The notes under the pieces are model-generated. The model was not told the origin of the DNA and ran no database searches. It worked only from the letters and a program-made list of their open reading frames with translations. Below, one piece after another: positions 7,879-57,219 of a stretch of DNA of 64,000 nt; the first letter of the stretch is position 1; each line of letters starts with the position of its first letter. Position numbers and translations under genes: made by a program. Origin of the DNA: Elusimicrobia bacterium GWA2_56_46 (lineage in GTDB: Bacteria > Elusimicrobiota > Elusimicrobia > Elusimicrobiales > UBA9959); contig MGTT01000021.1 in NCBI GenBank assembly GCA_001799575.1, forward strand, positions 1-64,000. Reading direction: 5' to 3'.

Positions 7879-8718
7879 ATGAAAATCAAGTTCTGGGGGG
7901 CCAGGGGGAGTATTCCTGTTTCGGGCAGGCAATATTTGAAGTACGGCGGCAGCACCACCTGCGTGGAGGTGCGCTCCAAAAAGGACGATCTCGTCATCGT
8001 GGATGCGGGCACGGGGATAAGGGCCCTGGGCAAAGAGCTTATCAAGAACCATCACAACGATTTCACGATGCTCTTCACGCATTCCCACTGGGATCACGTT
8101 ATCGGTTTCCCTTTCTTCGCCCCCATTTACAACAGTAGAACCAGGATCCGTATGCTGGGCTGCTCTTTTTCTTCCGACCCCGTCCGCGAGATAGTCGCCA
8201 AGACCATGCAGCCTCCCGGTTTTCCGGTGAAGTTCTCCGAGATCGCGGCCAGGTTCGAATTCAGCTCGGTCTGCGCCACCGGCTGGGAGATCGGCCCCAT
8301 GACCATCGTGCCTATCGAACTGAGCCACCCCAACTGCGGTCTGGGTTTCAAGTTCCAGGAAAAAGGGCGGACTTTCGTCTTTCTCACCGACAATGAACTG
8401 GATTTCAGGCATCCCGGCGGCAGAACCTTTGACGAGTACCTGGCCTTTTCCCGCGGGGCCGATCTGCTGGTGCACGACGCGGATTATACCGTGGAGGAAT
8501 ACTCCAGGCGTCTGGCCTGGGGCCACTCCACCTGGGAGCAGGCCCTTGACCTGGCGCTGAAAGCCGGGGTGCGCGGGTTCGGGCTGTTCCATCACAACCA
8601 GGATCGGAGCGACGCGGAAGTGGATAAACTGCTGGCCTTGTGCCGCAGGAAGATCAAAGCGGCCGGTTCCAGAATGACGTGTTTCGCTGTCAAAGAGGGC
8701 CAGCGCGTGGAAATTTAG
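7879..8718 (+). CDS. MBL-fold metal-dependent hydrolase
   Basis: Metallo-beta-lactamase-fold protein of 279 aa. The metal-binding motif THSHWDH is at residues 67-73 and further conserved positions are seen in FLTDNE and VHDADYT. The N-terminus KIKFWGARGSIPVSG followed by YGGSTTCVEV is typical of the RNase Z/PhnP/cyclic-nucleotide-phosphodiesterase branch, so a phosphodiester substrate is likely, but it cannot be named. A strong Shine-Dalgarno (GGAGGG) sits 5 bases before the ATG. It appears to be its own unit after the cydAB terminator. Confidence 0.85.
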   Translation: MKIKFWGARGSIPVSGRQYLKYGGSTTCVEVRSKKDDLVIVDAGTGIRALGKELIKNHHNDFTMLFTHSHWDHVIGFPFFAPIYNSRTRIRMLGCSFSSDPVREIVAKTMQPPGFPVKFSEIAARFEFSSVCATGWEIGPMTIVPIELSHPNCGLGFKFQEKGRTFVFLTDNELDFRHPGGRTFDEYLAFSRGADLLVHDADYTVEEYSRRLAWGHSTWEQALDLALKAGVRGFGLFHHNQDRSDAEVDKLLALCRRKIKAAGSRMTCFAVKEGQRVEI

Positions 8719-8795
8719 GCGGCGCAACTATTTATTGAAAAGGTTCGCGTAAACTAATAGAATAGTTCCACACTTGGGTACAGAGGCTTTATAAT

Positions 8796-9281
8796 ATGAA
8801 ATTCAATCTTTGCTCTTTCTGGCTGGATCCCGCGTTTTACCTCGCGGCCGGCGTATTCGCGCTGGCTTTGATCTTGCTGGTATTTTCGATACGGAAATAT
8901 CTTGAAATAAAAAATAAGTCGGATTTTGAGGAGCCGGCCGGGGAGGCCGCGGAAGTGCAGGACGAACTGCCGCTGGCCTCGGCCGAAGCGGTAAAACCCG
9001 CGCATGACGAGGCGCCGGCGCCCCTTCCGGCCGCGGCGGCGGCCGCGCTCCATCCCGACAGCCCCTCCAGGGCCGAGGAATTCGTTAAAGGGCTTTACCA
9101 GAATATGGCCAGCCTGGACGCCAGACTGAAGAACATAGAGGCGGTTTTTTCAAAAGCCAAAGTAAACAGGGATTTTACGGTAACTTTCCTTGAAGATATG
9201 GTCGCAGATTTTGACGCCCTCGATAAAGAGAAAATAAAAGCCCGCATAGAATACCTGGTGGAAGATCTGAAGAAAGGGTAG
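8796..9281 (+). CDS. Hypothetical single-pass membrane protein with coiled coil
   Basis: A 161-aa protein that I do not recognise. One hydrophobic segment (about residues 13-30) is followed by an acidic, Ala/Pro-rich linker (40-85). The C-terminal part (90-161) has helical, charged sequence likely to form a coiled coil. TATAAT overlaps the bases just before the ATG and there is no clear ribosome-binding site. A perfect hairpin follows the stop. It could be a cell-envelope or division-associated scaffold, but nothing in the sequence proves this. Confidence 0.65.
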   Translation: MKFNLCSFWLDPAFYLAAGVFALALILLVFSIRKYLEIKNKSDFEEPAGEAAEVQDELPLASAEAVKPAHDEAPAPLPAAAAAALHPDSPSRAEEFVKGLYQNMASLDARLKNIEAVFSKAKVNRDFTVTFLEDMVADFDALDKEKIKARIEYLVEDLKKG

Positions 9282-9282
9282 C

Positions 9283-9305
9283 CCGAATTCCTTAGTGGAA
9301 TTCGG
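9283..9305 (+). other. Perfect 9-bp hairpin between genes
   Basis: CCGAATTCC, loop TTAGT, GGAATTCGG, starting right after the stop at 9281. No T-run follows, so it is not a classical terminator; it may protect the 3' end of the transcript. It leads into GGGATGA/AGATGAGGG word repeats at 9306-9334. Confidence 0.6.
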
Positions 9306-9363
9306 AGGGATGAGGGATGAAAGATGAGGGATGAAAAGTAGTTTTTGTTTACATTGCCTTTCA

Positions 9364-10806
9364 ATGAAAACCGACGTTAATCGCAATTTTCAAAAAACCC
9401 CCCTGCTTTTTGTTTTGCTATCCGCGCTGTATAACATCGGCGTTTGCCGCGCCGGGATGCTGCCGGAACACGCCTTTAGCGACGACGCGCGGGGAACCAC
9501 CTCCGCTTCTTTCCTTAAATCCCCCGCTTCGGCGCGGCTTTCCGCCCTTGGTTCCGGCGCCGCCGCGCTCAAGGCGCCGGACTCTTTTTTCTTCAATCCC
9601 GGCGGGGCCGCCTATCTGCCCGAGGGAGAGTCTGCGCTGCTGCTCGGCTATGAAAGCCTGCTGGAGGGCGCGGGCCGCACGGCCGTCGCCGGGCTCAGGG
9701 GCCTGGAGCGCGGCGCGCTGGGGCTTGGGGCGCTGTACCGCTACGAAACCGGGCTGAAAAAATACGACGACAGGGGAAACGCCGCCGGCGGTTTCGAGGC
9801 CTATGACGCCGCCTTTGCAGCTTCTTACGGGGCGCGGTTCGGCTGGGGAGACGCGGGGCTGGCCCTTAAATACATCCGTTCCAGACTCTATGACCGTTCC
9901 GCGGATTCGGTGGCGCTGGATCTGGGCGTAGTAATCAAGGACAGGCGGCGCAGCAACGCGGAGTTCGCTTTTTTCGCCCGCAATTTCGGGACGCCCATGA
10001 AGCTCGGTTCGGAAAAGGCCCCGCTCCCTTTAGAACTGGGGGCGGGTTTGAGCTGGCCTTATACTCCCCGGTTTACCGCTTTTATCGACGGCCGTATGCC
10101 CGCCGACCATTCCCCCTACCTCATCCTGGCCGGTGAATATTCCATTCCGTTCGCGGGTTCGTCGGGCTTATTCCTGCGCGCCGGATTTAATTTTAAGAAC
10201 CAGGCGGACCTGGGGCTTATGGCGGCTTTTTCTTCCGGCTTCGGCGTGAAGCTGGGGGACGCTCTCTTCGACTATGCTTTCGTGCCTTTCGGCGATATCG
10301 GCGTCACGCACCGCTTCACCCTCGGCTGGGGCTTCGGGGCCAGCACGGGGGCTCGTGGCTCGGGACCGGGAGCTCCGAGCGTGGAACCGGGGGCTAGGGA
10401 GCGCGGCGAAAAAATATCGGTGACCGTGGCGACTTTTGAATCGGGTGCGGGGGCGACCGAGGGCCAGGCCCGGCAAATTTCCGATTTGCTGGAGAGCGAA
10501 CTTCTTAAAACGGGGGCGTTTAAGCTGGTGGAGCGGACGAAGATGGACTTTATACTGGCGGAGAAGAAGCTTGTCTACTCCGGCCTCGCTGAAAAAGAGC
10601 GTTCCGTGGAACTGGCGCGGCTGGTGGGCGCCAAGGCGGCGCTTTTCGGCAGCGTTTCGAGGAATGATAAAGGCTATATTATTTCTGTAAAGCTGGTGGA
10701 TACGGGGACCGGAGAGCTCCTGGTCGTGGATAACCGGAGCGAGGTCGAGGACTATCGCTTTAAGCAGGCCGCCAGGGAACTGGCCTCGGTGCTGGCCTCC
10801 CGCTAA
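9364..10806 (+). CDS. PorV/PorQ-like outer-membrane barrel fused to a CsgG/LpoB-like domain
   Basis: A 480-aa secreted protein. The signal peptide is MKTDVNRNFQ followed by a hydrophobic stretch ending near CRAG. Residues ~40-325 resemble the PorV/UPF0164 barrel family (ASFLKSPASARLSALGSGAAAL and FFNPGGAAYL near the start, then repeated amphipathic strands). After a Gly/Ser/Pro/Arg linker of word-like repeats, residues ~350-480 resemble a CsgG/LpoB-type domain (VTVATFES, LLESELLKTGAFKLVERTKM, AKAALFGSVSR). An ATG at 9331 in the same frame is possible, but it overlaps a GATGAGGG repeat and would lengthen the n-region; 9364 gives a cleaner signal peptide. Likely role: an outer-membrane platform or export accessory. 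The fusion is unusual. Confidence 0.7.
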   Translation: MKTDVNRNFQKTPLLFVLLSALYNIGVCRAGMLPEHAFSDDARGTTSASFLKSPASARLSALGSGAAALKAPDSFFFNPGGAAYLPEGESALLLGYESLLEGAGRTAVAGLRGLERGALGLGALYRYETGLKKYDDRGNAAGGFEAYDAAFAASYGARFGWGDAGLALKYIRSRLYDRSADSVALDLGVVIKDRRRSNAEFAFFARNFGTPMKLGSEKAPLPLELGAGLSWPYTPRFTAFIDGRMPADHSPYLILAGEYSIPFAGSSGLFLRAGFNFKNQADLGLMAAFSSGFGVKLGDALFDYAFVPFGDIGVTHRFTLGWGFGASTGARGSGPGAPSVEPGARERGEKISVTVATFESGAGATEGQARQISDLLESELLKTGAFKLVERTKMDFILAEKKLVYSGLAEKERSVELARLVGAKAALFGSVSRNDKGYIISVKLVDTGTGELLVVDNRSEVEDYRFKQAARELASVLASR

Positions 10807-14546: not shown

Positions 14547-16547
14547 ATGAACCCCCCGCCGCGCTTTAAACAGGTACTTGTGCTCAGCACCGCCATGCTG
14601 AGCTTTATCTCTTTCTGGAAGGCGGCGGCCGTGGTTCTCTGCGACATGGGTTCCAGCGCTTATTACGCCGGGAGCATCGCCATGAACGCTTTCGGGCCGG
14701 CGGCCCCCTGGTATGTCATGGCTGTCATGATCTTTTCCGGCCTGATGCTGATGGTCTATGTGGAATCCTGCGCCATGTTCGTGCGCGGCGGCGTTTATAA
14801 GGTGGTTAATGAGGCCATGGGCCATTCCATGGCCAAAGTTTCCGTGTCTGCTCTGATGTTCGATTATGTGCTGACCGGTCCGATAAGCGCCATAAGCGCG
14901 GGCCTTTATGTTTCCAGTCTGCTTTACAATATTCTGCCGCTGTTGCATATCAACTGGCACGTTCCGCACAAGCTTTTCGCGATCCTGTTCGCCGTAGCCG
15001 TGACGGCTTTTTTTTGGCGCGAGAACATAAAAGGCGTGGAGGAATCCAGCGATAAAAGTCTTAAGATCATGATCTTTGTAAGCGCGGTCGGAACGGTGTT
15101 GATTTTATGGGCGCTAGCCACTGTTTATATCAGGGGCTTTAAACTTCCGATTTTCGAGCTCAAGTTCACCAAAGAGTCGCTAGGCTGGATGACTAATTTT
15201 CCCTACCTTCAAACCATCGGCCTGGTGGGTATTTTTATGGCTTTCGGCCATTCCATCCTGGCGTTGAGCGGCCTTGAAACTCTGGCCCAGGTTTACAGGG
15301 AGGTAGGGGATCCCAAGATAAAAAATCTCAAGAAGGCCGCGTTCCTGATTTTTATGTTCAGTCTTGTTTTTACGGGCGGTCTTACTTTCCTTTCTTCCCT
15401 GATAATACCGGGCGATCTTATAGCCGGAAAGTACTCCGATAATCTCCTTAGCGGTCTGGCGCTGGAGCTCTCAGGCCCGTACTGGGCAAAACTTGTGTTG
15501 CAGTCTTTCGTCGTAGTTTCCGGCAGCCTGATGCTGGTCGGCGCCCTGAACACCTCCCTGGTCGGCTCCAACGGCGTGTTGAACCGCGTGGCTGAAGACG
15601 GTATCCTGCACGACTGGTTCCGCCATCTTCACAAAAAATACGGTACGACTTACCGGATGATCAACCTGGTGGCCATAACTCAGATAATCGTAATAATCCT
15701 GTCCCGCGGGGATATTTACCTGATCGGCGAAGCTTATGCCTTCGGCGTCCTATGGAGCCTGGTTTTTAAAACAATTTCCCTTATCATCCTGCGATTCAGG
15801 GAAGATCTGCCCAGGGACTGGATGTTCCCTCTCAATCTCAAGGTGGGGAAAATCTATTTCCCCGTGGGGATGTGCATGGTTTTTCTTGTCATGATCACGG
15901 CCGCCGTGGCTAACCTTATGACAAAACGGGTCGCCACCATTTCCGGCATTATTTTCACAGCCGTATTTTACGCTGTTTTCCAGATCTCCGAGAACATGAA
16001 CCGGAAGAAAGCGCGGCTCTACGCTCCCGACGAGGACTCAGAGAAGCTCAATATGCGCAAAGAGGCCGATATCGGCACTATCCTGCCGGAATTGGATAAG
16101 CAGCGGAAGATCCTTGTCCCGGTGCGTAATCCCAATAATCTGGTTCATCTTAAAAGCGTCCTTGAGACCGCCGACGACGAGACCACGGATATCATCGTGC
16201 TGGCGGTGAAGATCGCCAGGGGCATACAGCTGGAGGGCGAGACCGGCGACATTACACAGGAAGAGAAAGATCTCTTTACTTCGGTGGTTCTGCTGGCCGA
16301 GAAATACGGCAAGACCGTCAAGCCGATGCTGGTGTTTTCCAACGACCCGTTTTATTCCATCGTCCAGGTGGCGCAGGCCGCGGGCGTGGACGAAATTGTC
16401 ATGGGAGTTTCCGGCAGCACGGGCGCGGAAGTACAGCTGGAGAGCCTGGCCATGTCCTGGGGTATGCTGAAAAAAGCCGGCGTTTCCCGCCCCGTCACAG
16501 CCAAGGTAGTCTGGGAAGGACGGCAGTTGTCGTATAAGCTCTCGTGA
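14547..16547 (+). CDS. APC-superfamily permease with C-terminal UspA-like domain
   Basis: A 666-aa transporter. About twelve hydrophobic segments cover residues 15-475, beginning with STAMLSFISFWKAAAVVLCD as in amino-acid/polyamine antiporters. The soluble C-terminus (about 510-666) resembles a universal-stress-protein fold (RKILVPVRNPNNLVHL, IVLAVKIARG, AGVDEIVMGVSGSTGAEVQLESLAM). Such fusions occur in other bacteria and archaea, where the C-terminal domain is thought to regulate transport through nucleotide binding. The substrate is unknown. It follows the EIIA-like gene by 9 bases. Confidence 0.85.
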   Translation: MNPPPRFKQVLVLSTAMLSFISFWKAAAVVLCDMGSSAYYAGSIAMNAFGPAAPWYVMAVMIFSGLMLMVYVESCAMFVRGGVYKVVNEAMGHSMAKVSVSALMFDYVLTGPISAISAGLYVSSLLYNILPLLHINWHVPHKLFAILFAVAVTAFFWRENIKGVEESSDKSLKIMIFVSAVGTVLILWALATVYIRGFKLPIFELKFTKESLGWMTNFPYLQTIGLVGIFMAFGHSILALSGLETLAQVYREVGDPKIKNLKKAAFLIFMFSLVFTGGLTFLSSLIIPGDLIAGKYSDNLLSGLALELSGPYWAKLVLQSFVVVSGSLMLVGALNTSLVGSNGVLNRVAEDGILHDWFRHLHKKYGTTYRMINLVAITQIIVIILSRGDIYLIGEAYAFGVLWSLVFKTISLIILRFREDLPRDWMFPLNLKVGKIYFPVGMCMVFLVMITAAVANLMTKRVATISGIIFTAVFYAVFQISENMNRKKARLYAPDEDSEKLNMRKEADIGTILPELDKQRKILVPVRNPNNLVHLKSVLETADDETTDIIVLAVKIARGIQLEGETGDITQEEKDLFTSVVLLAEKYGKTVKPMLVFSNDPFYSIVQVAQAAGVDEIVMGVSGSTGAEVQLESLAMSWGMLKKAGVSRPVTAKVVWEGRQLSYKLS

Positions 16548-16552
16548 AACGA

Positions 16553-16585
16553 GGGCTTGCCTATGGCTTATGGCCTACGGCGAAA
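16553..16585. repeat. Word-like repeat (CTTATGGCCTA type) between genes
   Basis: GGCTTGCCTATGGCTTATGGCCTACGGC: permutations of CTTATGGC/CCTATGG. The same words appear in both orientations at 32961-32992 and 33028-33048. It lies between the permease stop and def. Confidence 0.6.
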
Positions 16586-16605
16586 AAATAATGGAGTGAC
16601 GACTT

Positions 16606-17166
16606 ATGGCCATAAAACGCATCTGTAAATACGGCGAAAAGATACTTGCGAAGAAAGCGCGCAAAGTGGAGGCGCAGGAACTCAAGCGGATCCTGCCCGG
16701 CATCATAAGCGACATGTTCGAGACCCTGGACGCGGTGGGCGGGGTGGGGCTGGCGGCCAATCAGATAGGCCTGGATCTTTGCCTGGCTGTCATAAAGATA
16801 AAGAAAGAGGAAGAAGAAGATTTGCGCATTGTCCTTATCAACCCGGAATTGACGGAAAAATCCGGCGTCATGACGGGAGAGGAGGGCTGCCTTTCCCTCC
16901 CGGGTCTGTTCGCCCGGATCAAACGTTTTTCCAAGGTCAAGGTGCGCGCACTTAATGAAAAGGGGCTGCCTATAGAGGTAAACGCCGAGGGTCTTTTTTC
17001 CAGGGCGCTCCAGCACGAGATAGACCACCTGGACGGGATTCTGTTCATAGACCGCCTGCCGTTCATGACCCGCCTTAAGCTTAAGCCCGCGCTCATGAAG
17101 CTCAAGCGGCGGTGGAAGAAGATGGATGAAAGCAAGTTGCCAAGAGGTAAGGAAGCAGGGATGTAA
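16606..17166 (+). CDS. def: Peptide deformylase
   Basis: Removes the formyl group from nascent N-terminal Met. All three motifs are intact: G46VGLAANQ53, EEGCLSL with the metal ligand Cys95, and QHEIDH with His137, catalytic Glu138 and His141. Length 186 aa, slightly long because of a basic C-terminal tail (KLKRRWKKMDESK). It sits directly upstream of fmt, the enzyme that adds the formyl group, as in many bacteria. GGAG lies 11 bases before the ATG. Confidence 0.96.
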   Translation: MAIKRICKYGEKILAKKARKVEAQELKRILPGIISDMFETLDAVGGVGLAANQIGLDLCLAVIKIKKEEEEDLRIVLINPELTEKSGVMTGEEGCLSLPGLFARIKRFSKVKVRALNEKGLPIEVNAEGLFSRALQHEIDHLDGILFIDRLPFMTRLKLKPALMKLKRRWKKMDESKLPRGKEAGM

Positions 17167-17190
17167 TGATGTAAGGTTTTCGAAAAAAAT

Positions 17191-18162
17191 ATGTCAAAGT
17201 TAAAGATCGTATTTCTCGGGACGCCGGAGCTGGCCTGCCCTTTTCTGAGCAGGATCGTTGCCGACGGCTACCGGGTGTCCGGCGTTATTTCCCAGCCGGA
17301 CCGGCTCCAGGGCCGCGGCATGAAGCTCTGCTGCCCCCCCGTAAAGAATAAAGCCGGACAACTGTCTTTGGAGGTATTCCAGCCCCGCACCGCCGAAGAT
17401 CTCATCTTCGCGTTATCGGAATTCAAGCCCGATCTGGGCGTGGCGGTCGCCTACGGGCGGCTTATAAAAAAAGAAGCCCTCGCCATCCCCAGGCTTGGTT
17501 TTCTCAACGTGCATTTTTCCCTCCTGCCGAAATATCGCGGCGCCGCCCCTGTGCAGCGGGCGCTGATGAACGGCGAGAGCATGACCGGCGTAACCGTGTT
17601 CTGGCTGGACGAGGGGCTGGACACCGGCCCGGTGTACGCTTCCCGGCCGGTTCCCGTTTCACCGGAGGACTATGCGCCGGAACTTTTTCAGAAGACGGCG
17701 GAGGCGGGCATGGAGCTCCTGAGCGAGTGTCTAGCCGGGATTGCGGCGGGACGGATAGTGAAAACTCCGCAGAGCGGCGGCGCGACGCTCGCGCCCAGGA
17801 TCTCTCCCGCGGATACCCGGCTTGATTTCAGCGATCCGGCCGCGTCCGTCCGCGATCTGGTTAGGGGACTGGCAGCCGGGCCCCGCGCGAGGTTCATGAT
17901 CCCGGTTGGCAGCCGGCCGGCGGAAGTGCAGGTCGTCAGGTGCTCGCTTCCCTCCGGCCGCCCCGGCTCCGCGGCCCGTCCCGGAACCATAACCGGGATT
18001 GAAAGGACGAAAGGCTTTTATATACAATGTAGCGACGGAGAACTGTTGATGGAAGAGGTGCAGCCGGAAGGCAAGAAGCCGATGAAGGCCCTGGATTTTC
18101 TGAACGGCTCCCGCCTTAAGCCGGGCGATACGGTCATTGGAGGTAACCACCAACTGTTATGA
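17191..18162 (+). CDS. fmt: Methionyl-tRNA formyltransferase
   Basis: Formylates initiator Met-tRNA using 10-formyl-tetrahydrofolate. The N-terminal Rossmann-like domain starts KIVFLGTPELACPFL. The catalytic Asn-His-Asp set is seen in FLNVHFSLLPKYRGAAPVQ and in VFWLDEGLDTGPV. The C-terminal tRNA-binding domain spans about residues 205-323. Length 323 aa, normal for the family. It overlaps htpX by 4 bases (ATGA). Confidence 0.96.
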   Translation: MSKLKIVFLGTPELACPFLSRIVADGYRVSGVISQPDRLQGRGMKLCCPPVKNKAGQLSLEVFQPRTAEDLIFALSEFKPDLGVAVAYGRLIKKEALAIPRLGFLNVHFSLLPKYRGAAPVQRALMNGESMTGVTVFWLDEGLDTGPVYASRPVPVSPEDYAPELFQKTAEAGMELLSECLAGIAAGRIVKTPQSGGATLAPRISPADTRLDFSDPAASVRDLVRGLAAGPRARFMIPVGSRPAEVQVVRCSLPSGRPGSAARPGTITGIERTKGFYIQCSDGELLMEEVQPEGKKPMKALDFLNGSRLKPGDTVIGGNHQLL

Positions 18163-45815: not shown

Positions 45816-47588
45816 TTATTTTGGTATCGTGAACCAGAAAGTGGAGCCCCGGCCTTCCGCGCTTTCCGCCCCGACGGAACCGCCGTGTAATTCCACCACG
45901 TGTTTCACTATAGAAAGACCGAGGCCCGTTCCGCCCATTTCGCGTGAACGGGCTTTGTCTACGCGGTAGAAACGCTCAAAAATACGGCCAAGCTGGTTTT
46001 GAGGTATGCCTATGCCGTTGTCCTTTATCAGAACTTTTACGTTCCCGCGCGGTTCCTGCGCGGAAAGTTCCACTTGCGCGTTCCCCGGAGAAAATTTAAC
46101 GGCATTGTCCAGCAGATTTATGAAAACCTGTCCCAGCTTCTCCGGATCAGCCCTGACGATAAGGCCGGGCGGTATCATATTTGAGATGACGGCATTTTTA
46201 GACTTAAAGACGGAGGCCAGGCCGGCTATAAGGGAATCGGCCAGATCTTTCAGCTCTATGTTTCCCTTTCTTATCTCTACCGCGGAAGATTCCAGTGAGG
46301 AAAGTTTCAGCAGATCGCTGACTATATTATCCAGCCGTTCCGCCTGGGCATGAATTACGCCGAGAAACTCTATCGTATGTTTCCTGTCGTCCACCGCTCC
46401 CCCCAGCAGCGTTTCCACGTAGCCGCGGATGGCGGTGAGCGGGGTTTTTAGTTCATGGGAAACGTTAGCCACAAAATCTCTGCGCTTGGCCTCCAGGCGC
46501 CGCACTTCGGTGATATCGTGTACGACCATAAGACAGCCGGACACTCCGCCGTTTTCAAATACCGGCGAAGCGGTCACGCTGAAAATTCCGCGGACGGGAG
46601 TGGAGAGTTCCATCTCCTCGGAAACCGGCTTTCCTTCTGAAAGGACGCGGGCGCATATTTTACTCAGCCTTGCGTTAGGGATGACTTCCAGCAGCGGCCT
46701 CGATACGGAGGCCTCGGTTTTGACGCTGAATATACGCTCCATGGCCGGATTAAGCGCGGTCACCCTGGCGTCAGGCCCCGTTACAAGAACCCCTTCGGCC
46801 ATGTTGCCGAAAGCCGCGGACAACTGTTGTGATTGGGTTTCAACCCGCCGCAGATACTCCTGTATGGCGGCGGACATTGAATTCAGTGTTTCGGCCAGTC
46901 TGCCCATCTCTCCGTGAAAGTCTTTCTGTATCCGGTACGAAAAATCCCCCGCGGCGAATTTCTTCGAACCATACACGATCTTCTCAAAGGGCCGTGAAAA
47001 GCCGGCCGAAACCGCCATGCTCAAAAAAAGAGAGAGCAGCAGCGCCAGAGCCAGCGCGGCCAACAACGTTTTTTTAAGCAGAGTCCGCAAGGACTCAAGC
47101 TGGGAGGCTGGTACAGCCAGGCGCACGACAGCCCCGGTACGGCCGGCGAAGCGCACCGGGTAGGCGGCGTAAAGCATTACCGTGCCAAGCGTGGCCGAGC
47201 GGCGCAGCTCGTAAGCGGCCTCTCCCTCCAGGGCCGCAGCCACCTCGGGACGATCCGCGTGGTTTTCCATTCCTTTGACGGAGGCGGAGTCCAATTCCGA
47301 ATCCGCCAGCACACGGCCGTCCGCGCCTATTATTGTCAGCCTGGAACGCACTTTTAAACCCAGGGAATGCGCCAGCGTGTTGATCTCCGGGGAAGCGATG
47401 TCCGAGGAACGGAGCTGCGCCGAAACCAGGGCCGCCTCGTCCGAGAGCTTGGATCTTAAGGCTGAAACCTCGGTCCTTTCCAGGCGTTGGTATACCAGGA
47501 AGAAAGCCGCGCCAAGCACGCCCGCGGAAAGCGCCAGATATGAAAGGAAAAGGCGGAATTTGAAAGTTTTAAAGATACCGGGCATCAT
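45816..47588 (-). CDS. phoR: Phosphate-sensing histidine kinase (PhoR-like)
   Basis: A 590-aa kinase. TM1 (about residues 8-28), periplasmic sensor (30-170), TM2 (173-196), HAMP (about 197-250), PAS (about 262-365; AFGNMAEGVLVTGPDARVTAL), HisKA with His378 in NVSHELKTPLTAIRGY, and ATPase motifs DNAVKFSPGNAQ, DNGIGIPQNQLGRIFERFYR and GGTGLGLSIVKH. Layout and place directly between the response regulator and pst genes identify it as PhoR. It overlaps the regulator stop by one base. Confidence 0.93.
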   Translation of the reverse strand: MMPGIFKTFKFRLFLSYLALSAGVLGAAFFLVYQRLERTEVSALRSKLSDEAALVSAQLRSSDIASPEINTLAHSLGLKVRSRLTIIGADGRVLADSELDSASVKGMENHADRPEVAAALEGEAAYELRRSATLGTVMLYAAYPVRFAGRTGAVVRLAVPASQLESLRTLLKKTLLAALALALLLSLFLSMAVSAGFSRPFEKIVYGSKKFAAGDFSYRIQKDFHGEMGRLAETLNSMSAAIQEYLRRVETQSQQLSAAFGNMAEGVLVTGPDARVTALNPAMERIFSVKTEASVSRPLLEVIPNARLSKICARVLSEGKPVSEEMELSTPVRGIFSVTASPVFENGGVSGCLMVVHDITEVRRLEAKRRDFVANVSHELKTPLTAIRGYVETLLGGAVDDRKHTIEFLGVIHAQAERLDNIVSDLLKLSSLESSAVEIRKGNIELKDLADSLIAGLASVFKSKNAVISNMIPPGLIVRADPEKLGQVFINLLDNAVKFSPGNAQVELSAQEPRGNVKVLIKDNGIGIPQNQLGRIFERFYRVDKARSREMGGTGLGLSIVKHVVELHGGSVGAESAEGRGSTFWFTIPK

Positions 47589-48274
47589 TATTTCTCGAAA
47601 CGGTAGCCATAGTTTTTAACGGTTACGATGCGCTTGCCCTCAGCTTTCAACTTTTTGCGCAGCGTTCCGATATGCACGTCCACCGTACGGGTCTCCACTT
47701 CCAGTGCGGCGTCCATGCCCCAGACTTTGTCAAGAATGGTTTCGCGCGAAAGCATTTTCCCCCCGGCCGCCATTAAGGCTTTCAGCAACTCGAATTCTCG
47801 GGCGGTTAGCTCCAGCGGTTTGCCCCTGACCAGCGCCAGTACCCGTGAGCAGTCCAGTTCCAGATCCCCGGCCCGGTAGATTTCCGGAGTTTCGGCCGCG
47901 GCGGCTGCGCGGCGCAGCACGGCTTTTACGCGGGCGAGCAGTTCCTTCACGCTGAAAGGCTTGGTCACGTAGTCGTCGGCGCCCAGCTCAAGGCCCACCA
48001 GCTTGTCCGACTCTTCGCTTCTGGCGGTAAGCATTATTATGGGTATTGAAGCGGTTTTAGCGTCGAACTTGATCCGGCGGCAAACTTCCAAACCGTCCAA
48101 ACCGGGCAGCATCAGATCCAGGATTATAAGGCGCGGACGCTCTTTCGCCGCCAACAGGGGGGCTGACGCGCCCTCGTACGCAAGCACGGTGCGGTAACCT
48201 TCTTTCTTAAGGTTATAGTCCAGCATTCTGGCTATATCTTTTTCGTCTTCGACCACCAATATTTTTTCATCCAT
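47588..48274 (-). CDS. phoB: PhoB/OmpR-family response regulator
   Basis: A 228-aa regulator. The receiver has acidic residues in ILVVEDEKDIARML, phospho-acceptor Asp53 in LIILDLMLPGLDG, Thr in LTARSEE and Lys in DYVTKPFSV. The winged helix (about 130-228) includes LTAREFELLKALMAAGGKM, LDKVWGMDAALEVETRTVDV and RIVTVKNYGYRF. First gene of the phosphate operon, it would activate pst under phosphate starvation. An extended -10 lies 7 bases before the ATG and no Shine-Dalgarno is seen. Confidence 0.93.
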   Translation of the reverse strand: MDEKILVVEDEKDIARMLDYNLKKEGYRTVLAYEGASAPLLAAKERPRLIILDLMLPGLDGLEVCRRIKFDAKTASIPIIMLTARSEESDKLVGLELGADDYVTKPFSVKELLARVKAVLRRAAAAAETPEIYRAGDLELDCSRVLALVRGKPLELTAREFELLKALMAAGGKMLSRETILDKVWGMDAALEVETRTVDVHIGTLRKKLKAEGKRIVTVKNYGYRFEK

Positions 48275-48340: not shown

Positions 48341-49561
48341 TCACAAATGGATGAAGTCCCGGCCGCCGCTTTCCAGGTATAGCGCCAGCAGCAGATAGTC
48401 CCGCAGGTGGCGGGTCAGCAGGAAGTTCTGTCGCACGTGTTCTCGGCCGTTCTCTCCCAGTTTCCTGGCGTAAGCGGGTTCGTGCAGCAGCCGCTTCATC
48501 CAGTAGGCCGTGCCCTCTATGGTGCGGGTAAGGATGCCGGAGTATTTATGGGTTATTTGCAGCGGTATGCCGCCGACCGCGCCCGCTATTACCGGCTTGG
48601 CTTTCCACAATGCCTCGGAAACGGTTAACCCGAAGCCTTCCTTGAGGGATTTCTGCAGGATTATGGAGGAGGCTCGCTGTATGGCGTTTATCTCAACGTT
48701 GCTGGTCGGGGGCAGACAGAGGACTATTATATCCGGGGTGCCTTCGGCCGCCGCTCGGGCTTCCGCCAATACCTGGGCGCCTTCCGGGTCGTCATCGGCG
48801 CTGCCGCCTACCAACAGCAGCCGCGCTGTAACATAAGGCTGTATTTTTTTGAAGGCTTCTATCACGCCCAGCGGATCCTTAAGCCGGTCAAAGCGCGAGA
48901 CCTGGGTTATAAGCGGCTTATCTGCGGGGATTTCCAGCCGCTTCATTATATCCGAGATCTCGGTATCCGTTAATTCCCTGTTCTTATCGGCCAGCGGGTC
49001 TATGGACGGCGGCACCTGAAACTGTTTAACAGGCAGCTCCTGCGAGAAGGACGGCGCGGAGATCACGGCGGCGTCATAGCGCGAGACGTATCCGCGCAGG
49101 AAATCCCAGACATCCCGCTGGCGGTTGGACAGGTCTATATGGCAGCGCCATATCCATTTGGCTCCCGCTGGTTTTTTCTCGATAAGCCCGGCGGGCTGCG
49201 GATCATGTATCAGGGCAATGTCGGCGTCCAGATTCACGGACTCCATATTCGTCTTGAGCGTGTCACGGTAGAGCTGGAAGTCGGCGGCGGTAAGTTTCTG
49301 CGGCGTTCCGTGCAGGGCGTTGTGGAATTTCTTGGTTACCGCGTAAAAATCCTCCCCGCCTTTGATAAGTTCCCAGCGGGGTTTTATCCCTAATTCAGTC
49401 ATCATGGGAAGCATACGGCTGAGGATCTCGGCTACGCCTCCGCCGACGGCGGTGGAATTTACGTTCAGGATAGTTTTATTTCTCAGTTTGGCGGAGATGG
49501 TTTTCAACTCTTCTATAGCGGTGTCGCCGGCAGCCGCAGCGTATTCGTCTATTTTAGGCAC
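48341..49561 (-). CDS. treT: Trehalose synthase TreT-like GT4 glycosyltransferase
   Basis: A 406-aa GT4-fold enzyme. TreT makes trehalose from NDP-glucose plus glucose, reversibly. Motifs: ILNVNSTAVGGGVAEILSRMLP, ALIHDPQPAGLI, KWIWRCHIDLSNRQRDVW, the nucleotide-sugar loop SRFDRLKDPLGVIEAFKKI, and LQKSLKEGFGLTVSEALWKAKP. It overlaps the DUF5752 gene by 8 bases and is last in a cluster with OtsA and OtsB, so two routes to trehalose are encoded together. Identity as TreT rather than another GT4 rests on these motifs and on context. Confidence 0.85.
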   Translation of the reverse strand: MPKIDEYAAAAGDTAIEELKTISAKLRNKTILNVNSTAVGGGVAEILSRMLPMMTELGIKPRWELIKGGEDFYAVTKKFHNALHGTPQKLTAADFQLYRDTLKTNMESVNLDADIALIHDPQPAGLIEKKPAGAKWIWRCHIDLSNRQRDVWDFLRGYVSRYDAAVISAPSFSQELPVKQFQVPPSIDPLADKNRELTDTEISDIMKRLEIPADKPLITQVSRFDRLKDPLGVIEAFKKIQPYVTARLLLVGGSADDDPEGAQVLAEARAAAEGTPDIIVLCLPPTSNVEINAIQRASSIILQKSLKEGFGLTVSEALWKAKPVIAGAVGGIPLQITHKYSGILTRTIEGTAYWMKRLLHEPAYARKLGENGREHVRQNFLLTRHLRDYLLLALYLESGGRDFIHL

Positions 49562-50213
49562 GGGACACCTCCGCGAGGCGATGCTCCATTATGCGGATTA
49601 TTCTTTGCCTCAGGCCTTCAAGAGTATATGAGTATGGATCAAGGCGGGAGATTTCCTTGCCTATAATGTCATCGTTAAAGTTAGTCTTAAACCAGTGTGA
49701 AAAGTCGTCCACGCCGTAAGGCGGGCGCAGACGGGCCTCAAAGACATGCAGATACAGGCTGGAAACGCTGACCTTGCGCAGGCATTGTATAAAACTTGCA
49801 TAATCCGTGGCGGCGCAGTCGGTTGGCAGCGAGAACCGTATCGCGCGCATAAAATGGAATTCACGGCCGGGGGTTACTGTGCGCATCGGTTCGGGATTCT
49901 CCGCGATATGCTTCTCCAGCATTTTTACGAACGCGTCCCGGATATTCGCCAGAGAATGATATTGCACGATATCAATGGATGTCAGTTCTTCGCCAAGCCG
50001 ATCCGCCTGCACAGTGTTAGCGACCCAGTACGCGAAATCGTTCGCGCCTTCCGGCACCAGGTGGTGGGACTGCTTTATGAAACGGTGCGTGTGATGGTAG
50101 ATAACGGCGTCGTCTGCCGCTTTGATTCCCTCAAGCAGTTCCGTTATGTTAAAAGCCTTGCGCCCGGTGACTTCGGTAAGCGTCAGCCGCGTGCAGAATT
50201 TGAATGGCTCCAT
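49554..50213 (-). CDS. DUF5752-family protein in the trehalose cluster
   Basis: A 219-aa protein of the DUF5752 type. HTHRF, VPEGANDFAYWVANTVQAD, EFHFMRAIRFSLPTDC and PYGVDDFSHWFKTNFND show two related halves, each with a D-F-x-Y/H-W motif. No catalytic role is known. Its position between otsB and treT points to trehalose metabolism. I chose 50213 because GTGGAG precedes it by 9 bases; an upstream ATG would overlap the otsB stop. Confidence 0.78.
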   Translation of the reverse strand: MEPFKFCTRLTLTEVTGRKAFNITELLEGIKAADDAVIYHHTHRFIKQSHHLVPEGANDFAYWVANTVQADRLGEELTSIDIVQYHSLANIRDAFVKMLEKHIAENPEPMRTVTPGREFHFMRAIRFSLPTDCAATDYASFIQCLRKVSVSSLYLHVFEARLRPPYGVDDFSHWFKTNFNDDIIGKEISRLDPYSYTLEGLRQRIIRIMEHRLAEVSRA

Positions 50214-50215
50214 AA

Positions 50216-51010
50216 TTATTTTCTCCACTTGATGTCCCAGCGCCTGGCGGAAATTATAAAGCGCAGCAGGCGCAGCACTTCCGCCTGGCCCGACAGAAAA
50301 TATCCGGCCCGGGATCCCGCCTTGCGGCCGACCCGTATTGTTATTCCCCTCTTCGCGAGCGTGTTAAACATGTCCTCGTCCGTAAGGTCGTCGCCCACGG
50401 CCACGCCTAACGGGTTCCCCAGCTTCTTCGCCAGCCTGTTCAATGCGCTGCCTTTGTGGGTTGCTCCCTTAGGAAGGAGTTCGAACACTTTATGGCCGTT
50501 GCGCCAATACAACGATCCGTTCTGTGCCGCTGCCAGGGCTTTCATTCCGCTGAAGAACCCGCGTTTATATGCCGCCTTGAGATTGCGATAATGAACGCTG
50601 GCCGAGAACATTTTGTTCTCCACCAGCACGCCCGTACCGGGCGGGAACCGTTCCTGAATCTCGGCGGCTGTTTTGGCTATCAGATCCCGTAGTTTAGCCG
50701 CTCTTGTATCGCGCCAGGCAAATCCGGGGCCTTTTATTTCTATGCCATGATTGCCGCCATAGTAAAGATTTTTCAAACCGACCAGTTTGCGCACGCTTTT
50801 AAGGGCTCTGCCGCTCAGTATGAACACGGAAACACCATGCAATGCCGACAATGCCGTCAGAGCGGTCTTGAACTCGGGTCTCAGCCGGGCCTGGCCGGGG
50901 GTCTCCGCCAGCGCGGCCAATGTACCGTCGAAATCCAGCGTCACCAGCAGTCCAGGCGCGGACGCAAGACGGTTTGAAACCTCGTCGGTGTTCTTCCAGA
51001 AAAGCTTCAT
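50216..51010 (-). CDS. otsB: Trehalose-6-phosphate phosphatase
   Basis: A 264-aa HAD-family phosphatase. The catalytic Asp26 and Asp28 lie in LVTLDFDGTLA; further HAD motifs are VFILSGRAL, GGNHGIEIKGPGF, and GVAVGDDLTDEDMF. It takes the product of the upstream OtsA and releases trehalose. It starts 1 base after the otsA stop and ends 3 bases before the DUF5752 start. Confidence 0.95.
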   Translation of the reverse strand: MKLFWKNTDEVSNRLASAPGLLVTLDFDGTLAALAETPGQARLRPEFKTALTALSALHGVSVFILSGRALKSVRKLVGLKNLYYGGNHGIEIKGPGFAWRDTRAAKLRDLIAKTAAEIQERFPPGTGVLVENKMFSASVHYRNLKAAYKRGFFSGMKALAAAQNGSLYWRNGHKVFELLPKGATHKGSALNRLAKKLGNPLGVAVGDDLTDEDMFNTLAKRGITIRVGRKAGSRAGYFLSGQAEVLRLLRFIISARRWDIKWRK

Positions 51011-51011
51011 T

Positions 51012-53267
51012 CTATACGCTCGTCAGCTTAAAATCGTCCATCCGCAATTTCATCAGCTCCTCGGTCAGGTTAGCCGCCCATTTGTAGATGTTGTTCTCGT
51101 GAATGTCCTGCCGCATGCGGGTCATCCGGTCCTCGACCTCCGTTTTAGGCATGGTGAGCGAATAATAGATGGCGTCGGCCATCTGTTCTATATCGTATGG
51201 GTTGACTATCAGCGCGTCCTGCAGTTCTCGCGAGGCTCCGGCGAAGCGGCTGAGTATCAGCACGCCGCGGTGATCGTCGCTTGCGGCCACGAATTCCTTG
51301 GCCACCAGGTTCATTCCGTCATGCAGCGAGGTGACCATGCAGACGTCGGCTATCTTATAGAACTTTGTTATCTCTTTGTGGTCGTGGTGTTTTTCCAGGA
51401 ATACTATCGCCTTCCAGTCCTTGGCCTTGAATTTCCAGTTTATCCTGTCCACCTCGGCGTGCAATTCGGCCAGGAATTTATGGTACTGCGGAATGTGTGT
51501 GCGGCTGGGCGCGCCCAACTGGATGAAGGAGAATTTTTTCACGTACCCCGGGTATTTCTCCAGGAACCGCTCCACGGCTTTCACCCTTTCCAGCATACCC
51601 TTGGTATAGTCTATACGATCCACGCCTACCCCTATCTTTTCCGCTTTTATACCGAGTTCTTTCAGCACCGTGGCAGGATCCGGCTTCTGCGACAGCGCCT
51701 TCGCGTCCCTCTCCGGCTGCTGAAAATCCACGCTTATAGGGAAAGGCTTTACCATGGTTATATGGCCTTCTTTCTGTACCGAGAAATGTTCCCAGTTTAT
51801 GCGGGACTCCATGGTGCGATCCACGGTATCCAGGAAATTATTGCAGTAGAACTGTGTCTGGAAGCCGATAAGATCCGCGCCCAGCAGCCCCATGATCAAT
51901 TCCTTCTGCCACGGGCAGATGCCGAAGGTTTCCGGGTTCGGCCAGGGGATATGCCAGAACACGGCCACGCGCGCGTCGGGCCGCGCCGCCTTTATCATAC
52001 CGGGCAGCAATGTAAAGTGATAATCCTGTATCAGGACGCAGGGTTCTTTTACAGCTTCTATTTCCTCAAGCACGGTTTGAGCGAATTTTTGATTCACCTC
52101 GTAATAATATTTCCAGTCTTCTTTTCTGAAGATGGGCCGGATATGCGCTATATGGCAGAGCGGCCAGATCCCTTCGTTGGCGAAGCCGTAGTAGTAGCCG
52201 TCTTCTTCCTCTTTACTGAGCGGAACACGGCGCAGGGTGTAGGCCGGCTCTTCCGGCGGCACCTTTATACGGTTTTTATCGTCCGTGACCTCAAAATCGG
52301 CCTCGCCGCTGCCATGAGCCACCCAGGTGCCGCCCGCGGCTTTCAGTATGGGGTCAAGCGCGGTCACAAGACCGCCGGCCGGGATAATAGTGCGAATTTC
52401 TTTGCCTTCTTTTATATGCATATACGGCTCGCGGTTGGAAACCACGAACAGCTGCCGCCCGTCCATTTTCGCTTTTATATGCTCTTTAAGCCGTTCCGGG
52501 GTCCAGAGGGATTCACCTTTCTGGCGCAGCCTGGCCTCGTTCTGGGCCGCCCGCCTGGCCGCCTGCAGGTTCGTGGCCAGAGTTGTGGCTTCATGCGCTA
52601 TAGGCGCGAAAATATCCCCCTTGATCGGCGGAACGTGTCCATGGGCGTCGCCTATGCGCAGATTCTTCATCCATTCGGCCATCTGGATAATGGGATCGAC
52701 CAGGTTCCACCTTATTATAAGCAGGGTCACCAGGGAGATGAGGATCATCTGCGCCAGCAGCCTTATTAATGTGCGTTTCCAGATCTTAAAAAGGTCGTAG
52801 TCTATGTATGACACGTTGGTGAATAGGATGATGCGCGCCCTCTCCCCGCCTTCAAGCGCGACAGAAAGCGGGTAGAGAAACATCTTTTTATCCGCCATGG
52901 GATATGTAACGGGTTCATCCTGCCCGTTTTTCAGCAGGGTTTCCACGGCTTCCTTGTTCACGGCCAGAACCGGGGTCAGAGCCGATGAGCTTACAATGCG
53001 GATTCCGGCAGAGTCGTAGACGGCGACGCCTTCCAATTGCTTCTGGGACTGGAACTTATCGGCAAGCCTTTGCATGCTGGTGTAGTTCTTTGCCGTCAGA
53101 TTGTTTCGGATGCTTTCCTTGAAAGTTTCAGCCAGCAGGGCGGAGCGGGACAGGACGTCTTCATAAAGCTTAACCTCTTCCTGCCTCACATTGAACCAGG
53201 CCGATACGATGGCCACGAACACCACCACCATTATGAGTGAAACGATCAACTTGAATGTTATGCGCAT
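51012..53267 (-). CDS. otsA: Membrane sensor-HAMP-trehalose-6-phosphate synthase fusion
   Basis: A 751-aa protein. TM1 (about residues 5-24), extracytoplasmic domain (25-165; SIRNNLTAKNYTSMQRLADK, VAVYDSAGIRIVSSSA), TM2 (168-188), HAMP (189-245; NLVDPIIQMAEWMKNLRIGD), then GT20 trehalose-6-phosphate synthase (about 270-745): LFVVSNREPYMHIK, GGLVTALDPIL, IQDYHFTLLPGMI, WHIPWPNPE, GVDRIDYTKGMLERV, and LHDGMNLVAKEFVA. Catalytic motifs look complete. The N-terminus resembles that of a chemoreceptor or histidine kinase, so enzyme activity is probably controlled by an external signal, perhaps osmotic. Start supported by AAGGGGG before the ATG. First gene of the cluster otsA-otsB-DUF5752-treT. Confidence 0.92.
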   Translation of the reverse strand: MRITFKLIVSLIMVVVFVAIVSAWFNVRQEEVKLYEDVLSRSALLAETFKESIRNNLTAKNYTSMQRLADKFQSQKQLEGVAVYDSAGIRIVSSSALTPVLAVNKEAVETLLKNGQDEPVTYPMADKKMFLYPLSVALEGGERARIILFTNVSYIDYDLFKIWKRTLIRLLAQMILISLVTLLIIRWNLVDPIIQMAEWMKNLRIGDAHGHVPPIKGDIFAPIAHEATTLATNLQAARRAAQNEARLRQKGESLWTPERLKEHIKAKMDGRQLFVVSNREPYMHIKEGKEIRTIIPAGGLVTALDPILKAAGGTWVAHGSGEADFEVTDDKNRIKVPPEEPAYTLRRVPLSKEEEDGYYYGFANEGIWPLCHIAHIRPIFRKEDWKYYYEVNQKFAQTVLEEIEAVKEPCVLIQDYHFTLLPGMIKAARPDARVAVFWHIPWPNPETFGICPWQKELIMGLLGADLIGFQTQFYCNNFLDTVDRTMESRINWEHFSVQKEGHITMVKPFPISVDFQQPERDAKALSQKPDPATVLKELGIKAEKIGVGVDRIDYTKGMLERVKAVERFLEKYPGYVKKFSFIQLGAPSRTHIPQYHKFLAELHAEVDRINWKFKAKDWKAIVFLEKHHDHKEITKFYKIADVCMVTSLHDGMNLVAKEFVAASDDHRGVLILSRFAGASRELQDALIVNPYDIEQMADAIYYSLTMPKTEVEDRMTRMRQDIHENNIYKWAANLTEELMKLRMDDFKLTSV

Positions 53268-53552
53268 AGCGGTTCCCCCTTGTTGAGCCCTGCGTAATTA
53301 ATGTCCGCGCCGGCCGGGCGCTTTGGAGCGAAGGTAAATAATCCAAGCGCTGGCAGACGGCAATGGGTTAAACGTGCAAAATGAAACAGCCGCCACCCGG
53401 TGGTTTAACCGGTGATGGCGGCCCGACCATCCCTCTCCTCCGGAGCGCAGCAGCATGCTCCGAACCCTTTGAATTATTCTATCCTATACGGATTTAATTG
53501 TCCAACATAAATCTCAGCAAGGGTAACGTCAAGACTTCTGCAGGCTCTTAAT
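53268..53552. other. 285-bp intergenic region with two hairpins, leader of the trehalose operon
   Basis: Contains GCCGCCACC (53389-53397) pairing with GGTnnnGGCGGC (53411-53422), and CGGAGC (53441-53446) pairing with GCTCCG (53457-53462). On the minus strand these lie 120-195 bases before otsA. No open reading frame, tRNA or recognised riboswitch motif was found. The first stem could also serve as terminator for the gene ending at 53553, but no T-run follows. Confidence 0.45.
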
Positions 53553-56241: not shown

Positions 56242-57219
56242 CTAAATGACTATCTTTTGGCTTTCGACTAATTTTCGTCCTTTCGCTATTGCTCTTGAAA
56301 CCCCGCTTTGACTTATCCCCAGCTCACGCATCAATTCTGTGCCGGTAACGCCGGCTTTCTCTTTACATAAGTAACAATAGAGCGCTCTCGCGCGCGCAGG
56401 CGCTCTATCGTGGCCCCGCCTGAAGATATCTTCCCGCAGGATACCGGTAAGCCCCTCGACTTCGGATAATAACTCGGCCCGGCTTTTTGGAGCGTTTTCG
56501 TCAGCTTCACCGGCGGCCCGCAGTACAGACTCGACAAAATCGCCTTCCCCAAGAATGCGTGGATCAGACAGAATCTTTTCTCCGGACCTTATCATAAGCG
56601 CCTTCGCGGCTCCACCCAGGCTTCGCAACAGGCCGCCGCCGTCAAGATTCACCCGCGCGCCTTTCCCGGCCTTCTCCGCCATTAGCGCCTGGTACTTCAC
56701 AACAGCCGTGTGTTCATCGCTACCGAAGTGCTCAAGAAAGGTATCCCTGTCTAACACCTCGTCCGGAACTCCTTTTACAGCGGCGGCATGGCCGCACCAC
56801 TTATACCCTTCAAGTTCCTCAAGGTTTTTGACCAAATTCGCGCGCAGGGGGTTGAGATGTATGTACGGGACGAGCTCCAACAGATATTCTTCTGCATCGC
56901 ATATTATCGCCTTATACCGGTTTTGGAACAGGTGACCGGCGCGCCGGTGCCTGCCGTTAAAATTGACCGCATAGCCGGTCAACACGTGGTGCATTATTTC
57001 AGAAAGAGGCCGGAGCCCCCGTAAGATCAAAAAATGGAAATGATTAGGGATCAGGCACCAGGCAAGGCATTTTCCGCCGCCTTTTTTCAGCCATCCCCCT
57101 ACACGTTCGACAAAATCGACATAATCGTCATCATCAATAAATATCTGGCCGCGTTCTATGCCTCGGGACATTACATGATACATCTGCCCGGGTATGTCTA
57201 TTCTCGCTTGTCTTGGCAT
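56242..57219 (-). CDS. REP-associated tyrosine (Y1/IS200-like) transposase
   Basis: A 325-aa protein. The Y1 transposase fold occupies residues 1-~135: MPRQARIDIPGQMYHVMSRG, HUH motif His60-Phe-His62 in IPNHFHFLI, catalytic Tyr119 in VPYIHLNPLRAN. The C-terminus (about 285-325) carries a helix-turn-helix, TGTELMRELGISQSGVSRAI, typical of the long RAYT/DnaA-like variants. It would cleave single-stranded REP hairpins. AGGAGGGG precedes the ATG, and copy 3 of the CCCGACA hairpin repeat supplies a promoter-like TGCTATTCT upstream. Confidence 0.92.
   Translation of the reverse strand: MPRQARIDIPGQMYHVMSRGIERGQIFIDDDDYVDFVERVGGWLKKGGGKCLAWCLIPNHFHFLILRGLRPLSEIMHHVLTGYAVNFNGRHRRAGHLFQNRYKAIICDAEEYLLELVPYIHLNPLRANLVKNLEELEGYKWCGHAAAVKGVPDEVLDRDTFLEHFGSDEHTAVVKYQALMAEKAGKGARVNLDGGGLLRSLGGAAKALMIRSGEKILSDPRILGEGDFVESVLRAAGEADENAPKSRAELLSEVEGLTGILREDIFRRGHDRAPARARALYCYLCKEKAGVTGTELMRELGISQSGVSRAIAKGRKLVESQKIVI

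Follow-up and report, generated by a model that had tools for sequence, protein, structure and literature searches.

A putative receptor-type trehalose-6-phosphate synthase in Elusimicrobiota, encoded in a conserved operon behind an nhaA-I-class riboswitch

Receptors with a HAMP domain drive kinases, chemotaxis proteins and nucleotide cyclases, the WalK-type histidine kinases among them having the layout TM-Cache/PAS-TM-HAMP-kinase. Among trehalose operons, the crenarchaeal one of Thermoproteus includes OrfY; a search of the open-access literature returned no paper on this operon. On the RNA side, nhaA-I RNAs belong to the Li+-I riboswitch class, and those members that have been tested are responsive to Li+ (PMC9646797; cf. 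PMC9337991). Rare terminator-bearing nhaA-I variants, reported from Deltaproteobacteria only, respond instead to Na+ and make up the Na+-II riboswitches, marked by a C at position 54 in the D. propionicus construct (PMC9646797). Trehalose-6-phosphate synthase (TPS) genes are described as "occasionally associated" with nhaA-I RNAs, the choice between Li+ and Na+ at these genes being left open by the authors, and the main text makes no mention of Elusimicrobia (PMC9646797).

Here we describe a locus in which elements of these systems are found together. It lies in a 64-kb stretch of DNA, called the window below as a whole, which comes from a genome of 2.66 Mb (98.8% complete) and is assigned to Elusimicrobiota by its relatives; a search of this genome returned a single GT20 gene, which is the first of the following four:

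51012..53267, minus strand: receptor-type trehalose-6-phosphate synthase (TPS), 751 aa; ATG at 53267, stop ends at 51012
50216..51010, minus strand: otsB, trehalose-6-phosphate phosphatase; PF02358 and TIGR00685 above cut-off
49554..50228, minus strand: DUF5752 protein of the OrfY family; PF19027, 196.7 vs 23; PDB 4cso, E 2e-22
48341..49561, minus strand: TreT-type trehalose glycosyltransferase; PF21269; PDB 6zj4, E 3e-122, and 2x6q, E 1e-97

These genes succeed one another in the order TPS-OtsB-DUF5752-TreT with gaps or overlaps of only a few bases, and all four recur in this order on one strand in 21 of 30 relatives, several of the others ending at a contig edge; the same gene set even adjoins distant members of the TPS family (L143, L154 and L155). 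Hence, the sequence-only reading, which had grouped OtsB, a DUF5752 protein and TreT with the synthase in one operon, was correct on this point, and the four-gene operon is conserved. The structure matched by the DUF5752 protein bears the title "OrfY protein, transcription factor" (4cso), and the TreT protein scores under the Thermococcales equivalog cut-off NF041139. As in the crenarchaeal operon, which joins a DUF5752/OrfY homologue to TPS and glycosyltransferase genes, these functions are clustered; in contrast to it, TPS and OtsB are here separate proteins, the TPS is fused to a receptor module and a riboswitch is present.

The catalytic part of the TPS is readily recognized:

51048..52454, minus strand: GT20 catalytic domain, residues 272-740; PF00982; catalytic positions conserved

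The PF00982 match covers residues 273-738 (E 2.4e-119; 399.6 bits against a gathering score of 32.5), and the active-site positions, which we take to be R9, D130, H154, R262, K267, D361 and E369 by OtsA numbering, are conserved in 75/75 rows of a GT20 alignment, the TPS having also been aligned to solved TPS structures. On this ground the domain is a putative T6P synthase, for whose activity the adjoining OtsB gene is circumstantial evidence. Thus, catalytic domain and active-site positions are shared with the OtsA/GT20 synthases (PF00982); unlike them, the TPS carries a receptor module of about 270 residues in front, and it scores under the TIGR02400 OtsA equivalog cut-off (448 vs 564.85 bits). 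This module has the following parts:

53193..53255, minus strand: TM1, residues 5-25; hydropathy (hydrophobic segment near residues 3-30) and model
52812..53180, minus strand: extracytoplasmic Cache/PAS-type sensor, residues 30-152; model and fold match, with weak Pfam Cache matches
52707..52793, minus strand: TM2, residues 159-187; hydropathy (hydrophobic segment near residues 162-195) and model
52548..52706, minus strand: divergent HAMP, residues 188-240; hhalign with controls, helix-loop-helix in the model
52455..52547, minus strand: helical connector including the conserved EARLRQ..ESLWTPERLKE, residues 241-271; alignment and model

An AlphaFold model of residues 1-272 as a monomer, based on a 29-row alignment (mean pLDDT 75.6), has TM1 extended by a long helix and followed by a mixed sheet; TM2 is likewise continuous with a helix, beyond which a loop leads to a second helix and then a short one. 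A full-length model was poor (pLDDT 59.3) and was left out of consideration for the GT20 domain, so the structure search was made with the N-terminal model alone. Its top PDB match was WalK (9a5d_A, itself an integrative model; 263 residues, Z 14.5), and the sensor matched the crystal structure of the WalK extracellular domain (4ywz_B; Z 13.6, 2.6 Å, 131 residues), followed by CitA (Z 10.8), DctB (Z 10.8) and other Cache/PAS receptors. By Pfam, sCache_3_2 was weakly matched in 6/24 family members (best E 0.0027). In the connector, the WTxxxL part is common to soluble TPS relatives.

Pfam proved unsuited as a test for the HAMP domain, which it missed: the gathering score of PF00672 is not reached in the TPS, a single one of 24 relatives matches it at E 0.11, and the TPS is absent among the 19 PF00672 matches of its own genome at E<=10. 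We used hhalign with shuffles instead, aligning residues 158-262 (24-row alignment) to 16 HAMP segments taken from this genome, and obtained a probability of 91.6 and a score of 37.7 over 57 gap-free columns. The highest score among 200 column shuffles was 21.1, and when stretches were slid along the protein, 12 of 13 scored <=21.4, the thirteenth being the same region (157-261). The region also has a conserved proline and a helix-loop-helix immediately after the TM helix. Residues 188-240 are, by this profile alignment and the monomer model, a HAMP domain, which we label divergent because it falls below the PF00672 gathering score. Taken together, topology, sensor fold and HAMP position in the first 270 residues match those of the WalK-type histidine kinases, from which the TPS differs in having a GT20 domain in place of the kinase as output and no PAS domain after the HAMP.

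Is this architecture a peculiarity of one genome? The sequence-only reading had proposed a search for it across genomes, and in 340 Elusimicrobiota genomes, of which 112 had TPS matches at E<=1e-30, we found 74 full-length genes of the TM-sensor-HAMP-GT20 form in 70 genomes. The remainder of the 133 classed rows comprised 12 TM/HAMP-only forms (set by match position; on reading, that of G264 is full-length and that of G265 is truncated at a contig edge), 11 soluble forms, 10 TPS-TPP-like forms and 26 fragments. Among full-length relatives the receptor layout is retained down to 41-43% identity. Among the 359 records from a plasmid search, coverage of the TPS query never reached 80%, and the 21 pattern matches in viral contigs included no relative of the TPS. 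The nearest GT20 found outside the phylum, in these plasmid and viral searches, was that of an Aminobacter plasmid (NZ_CP015007; L062:4782-6599; 49%). It belongs to the same GT20 subfamily and is likewise membrane-anchored, by a single N-terminal TM and a short linker; in contrast to the TPS described here, it has neither sensor nor HAMP. Membrane anchoring of TPS may therefore extend beyond Elusimicrobiota. In a 75-row GT20 tree, built by a quick method and in which the branches leading to Aminobacter, Halobaculum and one TPS-TPP row are long, the fused and short rows group together with the single-TM Aminobacter rows (SH-aLRT 92) and the soluble forms lie outside, a grouping consistent with a single gain of the receptor-GT20 fusion. 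The short forms nest within the fused group and require 2 changes, although they may have a single origin. These comparisons show the receptor-type TPS to be genuine, conserved and of old standing in Elusimicrobiota.

The rates of evolution differ along the protein. Between the window gene and nine relatives, pN/pS is 0.15-0.55 in the sensor, 0.07-0.19 in the HAMP and connector, and 0.06-0.13 in the GT20 domain; at the codon level the N-terminal half is thus under purifying selection. In distant relatives the identity of the sensor falls to about 20%, with the GT20 domain still at least at 53%. Such a fast-evolving sensor in front of a slowly evolving TM2-HAMP-connector-GT20 unit is, as judged from sequence divergence, the pattern of a receptor. 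The central claims of the sequence-only reading, a fusion of an intact GT20 domain to a transmembrane sensor and HAMP domain, with the GT20 domain occupying the place of a kinase or methyl-accepting output, are upheld by the N-terminal topology (TM1, Cache/PAS-type sensor, TM2, divergent HAMP), the WalK-like fold and this rate pattern.

The main rival explanation, which we regard as less likely but not improbable, is that the N-terminal half serves merely as a membrane anchor or dimerisation module, with an inert or nearly inert sensor, leaving the riboswitch described below as the sole control. The low identity of the sensor in distant relatives would suit it, as would the alphaproteobacterial plasmid TPS with its one TM and short linker, and as would eight short TPS genes (L117-L124) that lack the sensor altogether, encoding just a TM or a pair of them and a stretch that is HAMP-like or coiled. 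Indeed, since the sensor is gone from several relatives that still have TM-HAMP-GT20, it is dispensable in some lineages. However, the sensor region is retained in all 74 full-length genes and is itself under purifying selection, and the conservation of TM2, HAMP and connector goes far beyond the needs of an anchor. Moreover, three genomes (G242, G252 and G260) hold full and short forms together, which suggests different roles for the two. Control of catalysis by the sensor is, to us, the best reading of the anatomy of the TPS.

The region ahead of the TPS holds a second set of features:

53476..53504, minus strand: promoter-like site TGGACA-17-TAGAAT; 10/12 consensus, by consensus match only; ends 9 nt before the aptamer
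53413..53467, minus strand: nhaA-I riboswitch aptamer (RF03057; Li+-I/Na+-II class); 42.2 bits, gathering 37
53389..53422, minus strand: terminator-like hairpin GCCGCCA...TGGCGGC; -21.9 kcal/mol, 6 T in the next 9 nt
53275..53280, minus strand: Shine-Dalgarno-like AGGGGG, from the sequence; 8 nt 5' of the TPS ATG

The aptamer is the sole Rfam match of the window and lies 146 nt before the TPS ATG; a scan of the window for its 18-nt core at <=3 mismatches gave one occurrence (0.06 expected), and its P2 loop is identical to the Rfam consensus. The 293-nt region has 2 promoter-like sites where shuffles give 0.3. The hairpin uses the 3' strand of the aptamer helix P2; its T tail is imperfect and a stricter terminator scan does not call it. 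The DUF1646-motif (Na+-I) RNA gave no match up to E 1 in the window leader or up to E 10 in that of one relative. The sequence-only reading had held that synthesis would respond to the outside signal without transcription; this part of it fails, since the start codon is preceded by an nhaA-I riboswitch, itself behind a promoter-like site, which had escaped that reading, and transcriptional control by an intracellular cation is therefore likely as well. The operon is, from its leader, very probably under an alkali-cation riboswitch.

This linkage holds across the phylum. Of 77 nhaA-I matches at E<=1e-4, in 64 of 334 genomes searched, 57 are followed within 5 kb by a TPS gene on the same strand, the distance being 8-432 nt for 35 of them and 1057-2393 nt for the other 22; conversely, 46/74 full TPS genes have an nhaA-I within 5 kb and 28/74 are without one under strict filters, by which weak matches may be lost. 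A separate Rfam scan of 10 loci gave no match in 4 (L011, L019, L024 and L025). At 12 long-gap loci a transporter-sized ORF of 309-354 aa stands between riboswitch and TPS, and the nine such ORFs scanned, from 8/12 of these loci, comprised 4 DUF1646 and 5 Na_Ca_ex proteins. The helices themselves vary in a compensated manner: in 22 aptamers, aligned from 50 distinct ones, 98.2% of P1/P2 cells are paired, 7/13 pairs have changes on both sides, and such both-side-changed cells number 35 against 10.3 in shuffles. These 22 thus display both the P1/P2 covariation and the invariant core of the nhaA-I class. A hairpin on the 3' strand of P2 with a T-rich tail accompanies 39/50 aptamers (4.05 expected with shuffled tails); the other 11 are without a terminator-like hairpin, and the aptamer of some relatives runs right up to the start codon.

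Twenty nhaA-I matches are not linked to TPS, one being a second copy in the source genome (L192:4942-4997; G000 contig 13, 19941-19996; 48.7 bits), where a clean terminator-like hairpin and then a DUF1646 gene follow. From 9 of the 19 other loci, which were fetched, we scanned ten proteins, some encoded by genes that are not the first after the riboswitch: 3 were MscS, one each was a P-type ATPase, Na/H exchanger, DUF1646, Band_7, CitMHS or solute-binding protein, and the tenth matched no family. In particular, the genes near nhaA-I at L195, L197, L198, L206 and L204, for MscS, a Na/H exchanger, a P-type ATPase, a Band_7 (HflK/C-like) protein and a sugar-binding protein, look like a salt-stress regulon.

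With the riboswitches of PMC9646797 the RNA shares its aptamer and loop, and in 39/50 cases a terminator-like stem overlaps the aptamer in the manner of Na+-II; it differs in having TPS as the main target, in the receptor form, in Elusimicrobiota, and in a lowest P1 pair off consensus. Could it be a canonical Li+-I switch, with trehalose made as a lithium response? We think this unlikely. In its favor, the best Rfam match is nhaA-I, the tested members of which are Li+-responsive (PMC9646797), and the P2 loop agrees fully with the consensus. Against it, the terminator-like platform resembles that of the Na+-II variants in the same account; the lowest P1 pair is C/U-G in 22/22 aptamers as opposed to G-C in the Rfam consensus; and the linked genes encode Na+ transporters, MscS channels and a sugar-binding protein, with no NhaA among those scanned. 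Because of the terminator-like overlap and the Na+-transporter neighbors, Na+ is favored over Li+, and the ligand of the TPS-linked nhaA-I RNAs would most likely be Na+.

Our main reading, to which we assign a probability of roughly 0.6, is a salt- or osmotic-stress operon with two layers of control on trehalose synthesis, riboswitch and membrane-receptor TPS. Briefly, we advance the following mechanism: (i) at the level of transcription, the nhaA-I-class riboswitch would sense an alkali cation, most likely Na+; the ligand would hold helix P2 and block the overlapping hairpin, making this an ON switch that allows TPS-OtsB-DUF5752-TreT to be transcribed, in some relatives with a Na+ transporter gene ahead of TPS in the same transcription unit; (ii) at the level of protein, the TPS would act as a dimeric membrane receptor, in which a signal at the sensor would pass via TM2, the divergent HAMP and the helical connector to the N-terminal lobe of the GT20 domain, raising or lowering T6P synthesis at the membrane, with OtsB turning the T6P into trehalose. 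More tentatively, at a little short of even odds, this could be a class of transmembrane receptor with a central osmolyte-producing enzyme as its output, expressed under a Na+-sensing nhaA-I variant, such that cytosolic Na+ and an extracytoplasmic signal are independent inputs. Among the titles and abstract openings returned by searches of the open-access literature, none reported a HAMP-GT20 fusion. If true, a biosynthetic glycosyltransferase as the output of a HAMP receptor would mean direct and fast control from sensor to metabolite, with trehalose possibly governed both by salt and by an outside signal. The two-input reading would likewise, if true, answer the published question of why the nhaA-I class precedes TPS genes, and the 57 TPS-linked cases in Elusimicrobiota, some of which share their unit with a Na+ transporter gene, bear on the Li+/Na+ question as posed in PMC9646797. 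The natural sensorless and soluble relatives of the TPS offer ready controls for the receptor form.

Two further alternatives are very improbable. The first is a soluble OtsA made from an internal start, with the upstream frame untranslated or cleaved, a start downstream of the HAMP being what the sequence-only reading had named as its own refutation. Internal Met codons do exist (e.g., residue 268), and the phylum also has soluble relatives, about 490-510 aa long. However, Met stands at the TPS start in 33/35 alignment rows as MRIT or a near variant (L036 and L037 have VIRIT), the M-R/K-I-T start and the subsequent hydrophobic helix are kept among relatives, the Shine-Dalgarno-like AGGGGG is well placed, the upstream frame is under purifying selection, and the TM and HAMP columns are conserved; we reject the soluble start because of the conserved start, the Shine-Dalgarno and the selection. 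The second, that membrane-made T6P is a messenger rather than a bulk osmolyte precursor, draws on the receptor architecture and on plants, where T6P is a signal, and we give it scant credence, as OtsB and TreT of the same operon would remove or bypass T6P and, to our knowledge, no bacterial T6P receptor is known.

Some minor observations concern the surroundings of the TPS genes. At L002 there are two receptor-TPS copies (8001-10253 and 15167-17419) separated by about 5 kb, both of them preceded by a riboswitch core of their own and followed by otsB. In 5/30 relatives, a TM-sensor-TM histidine kinase gene, with a sensor layout resembling that of the TPS, stands between otsB and the DUF5752 gene or after otsB (L012:11034-12422 and L027:5864-7288; also L014, L017 and L022). 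A PhoB/PhoR-like two-component pair lies 66 nt after treT in the window (45816-48274, minus strand); we dropped it as a part of the system, there being no such pair after TreT in relatives, and at L016 kinase and regulator matches (35-41%) follow TreT on the opposite strand. Farther upstream of the TPS, the window has an ORF at 56242-57219 (minus strand), which presumably resembles a REP-associated tyrosine transposase.
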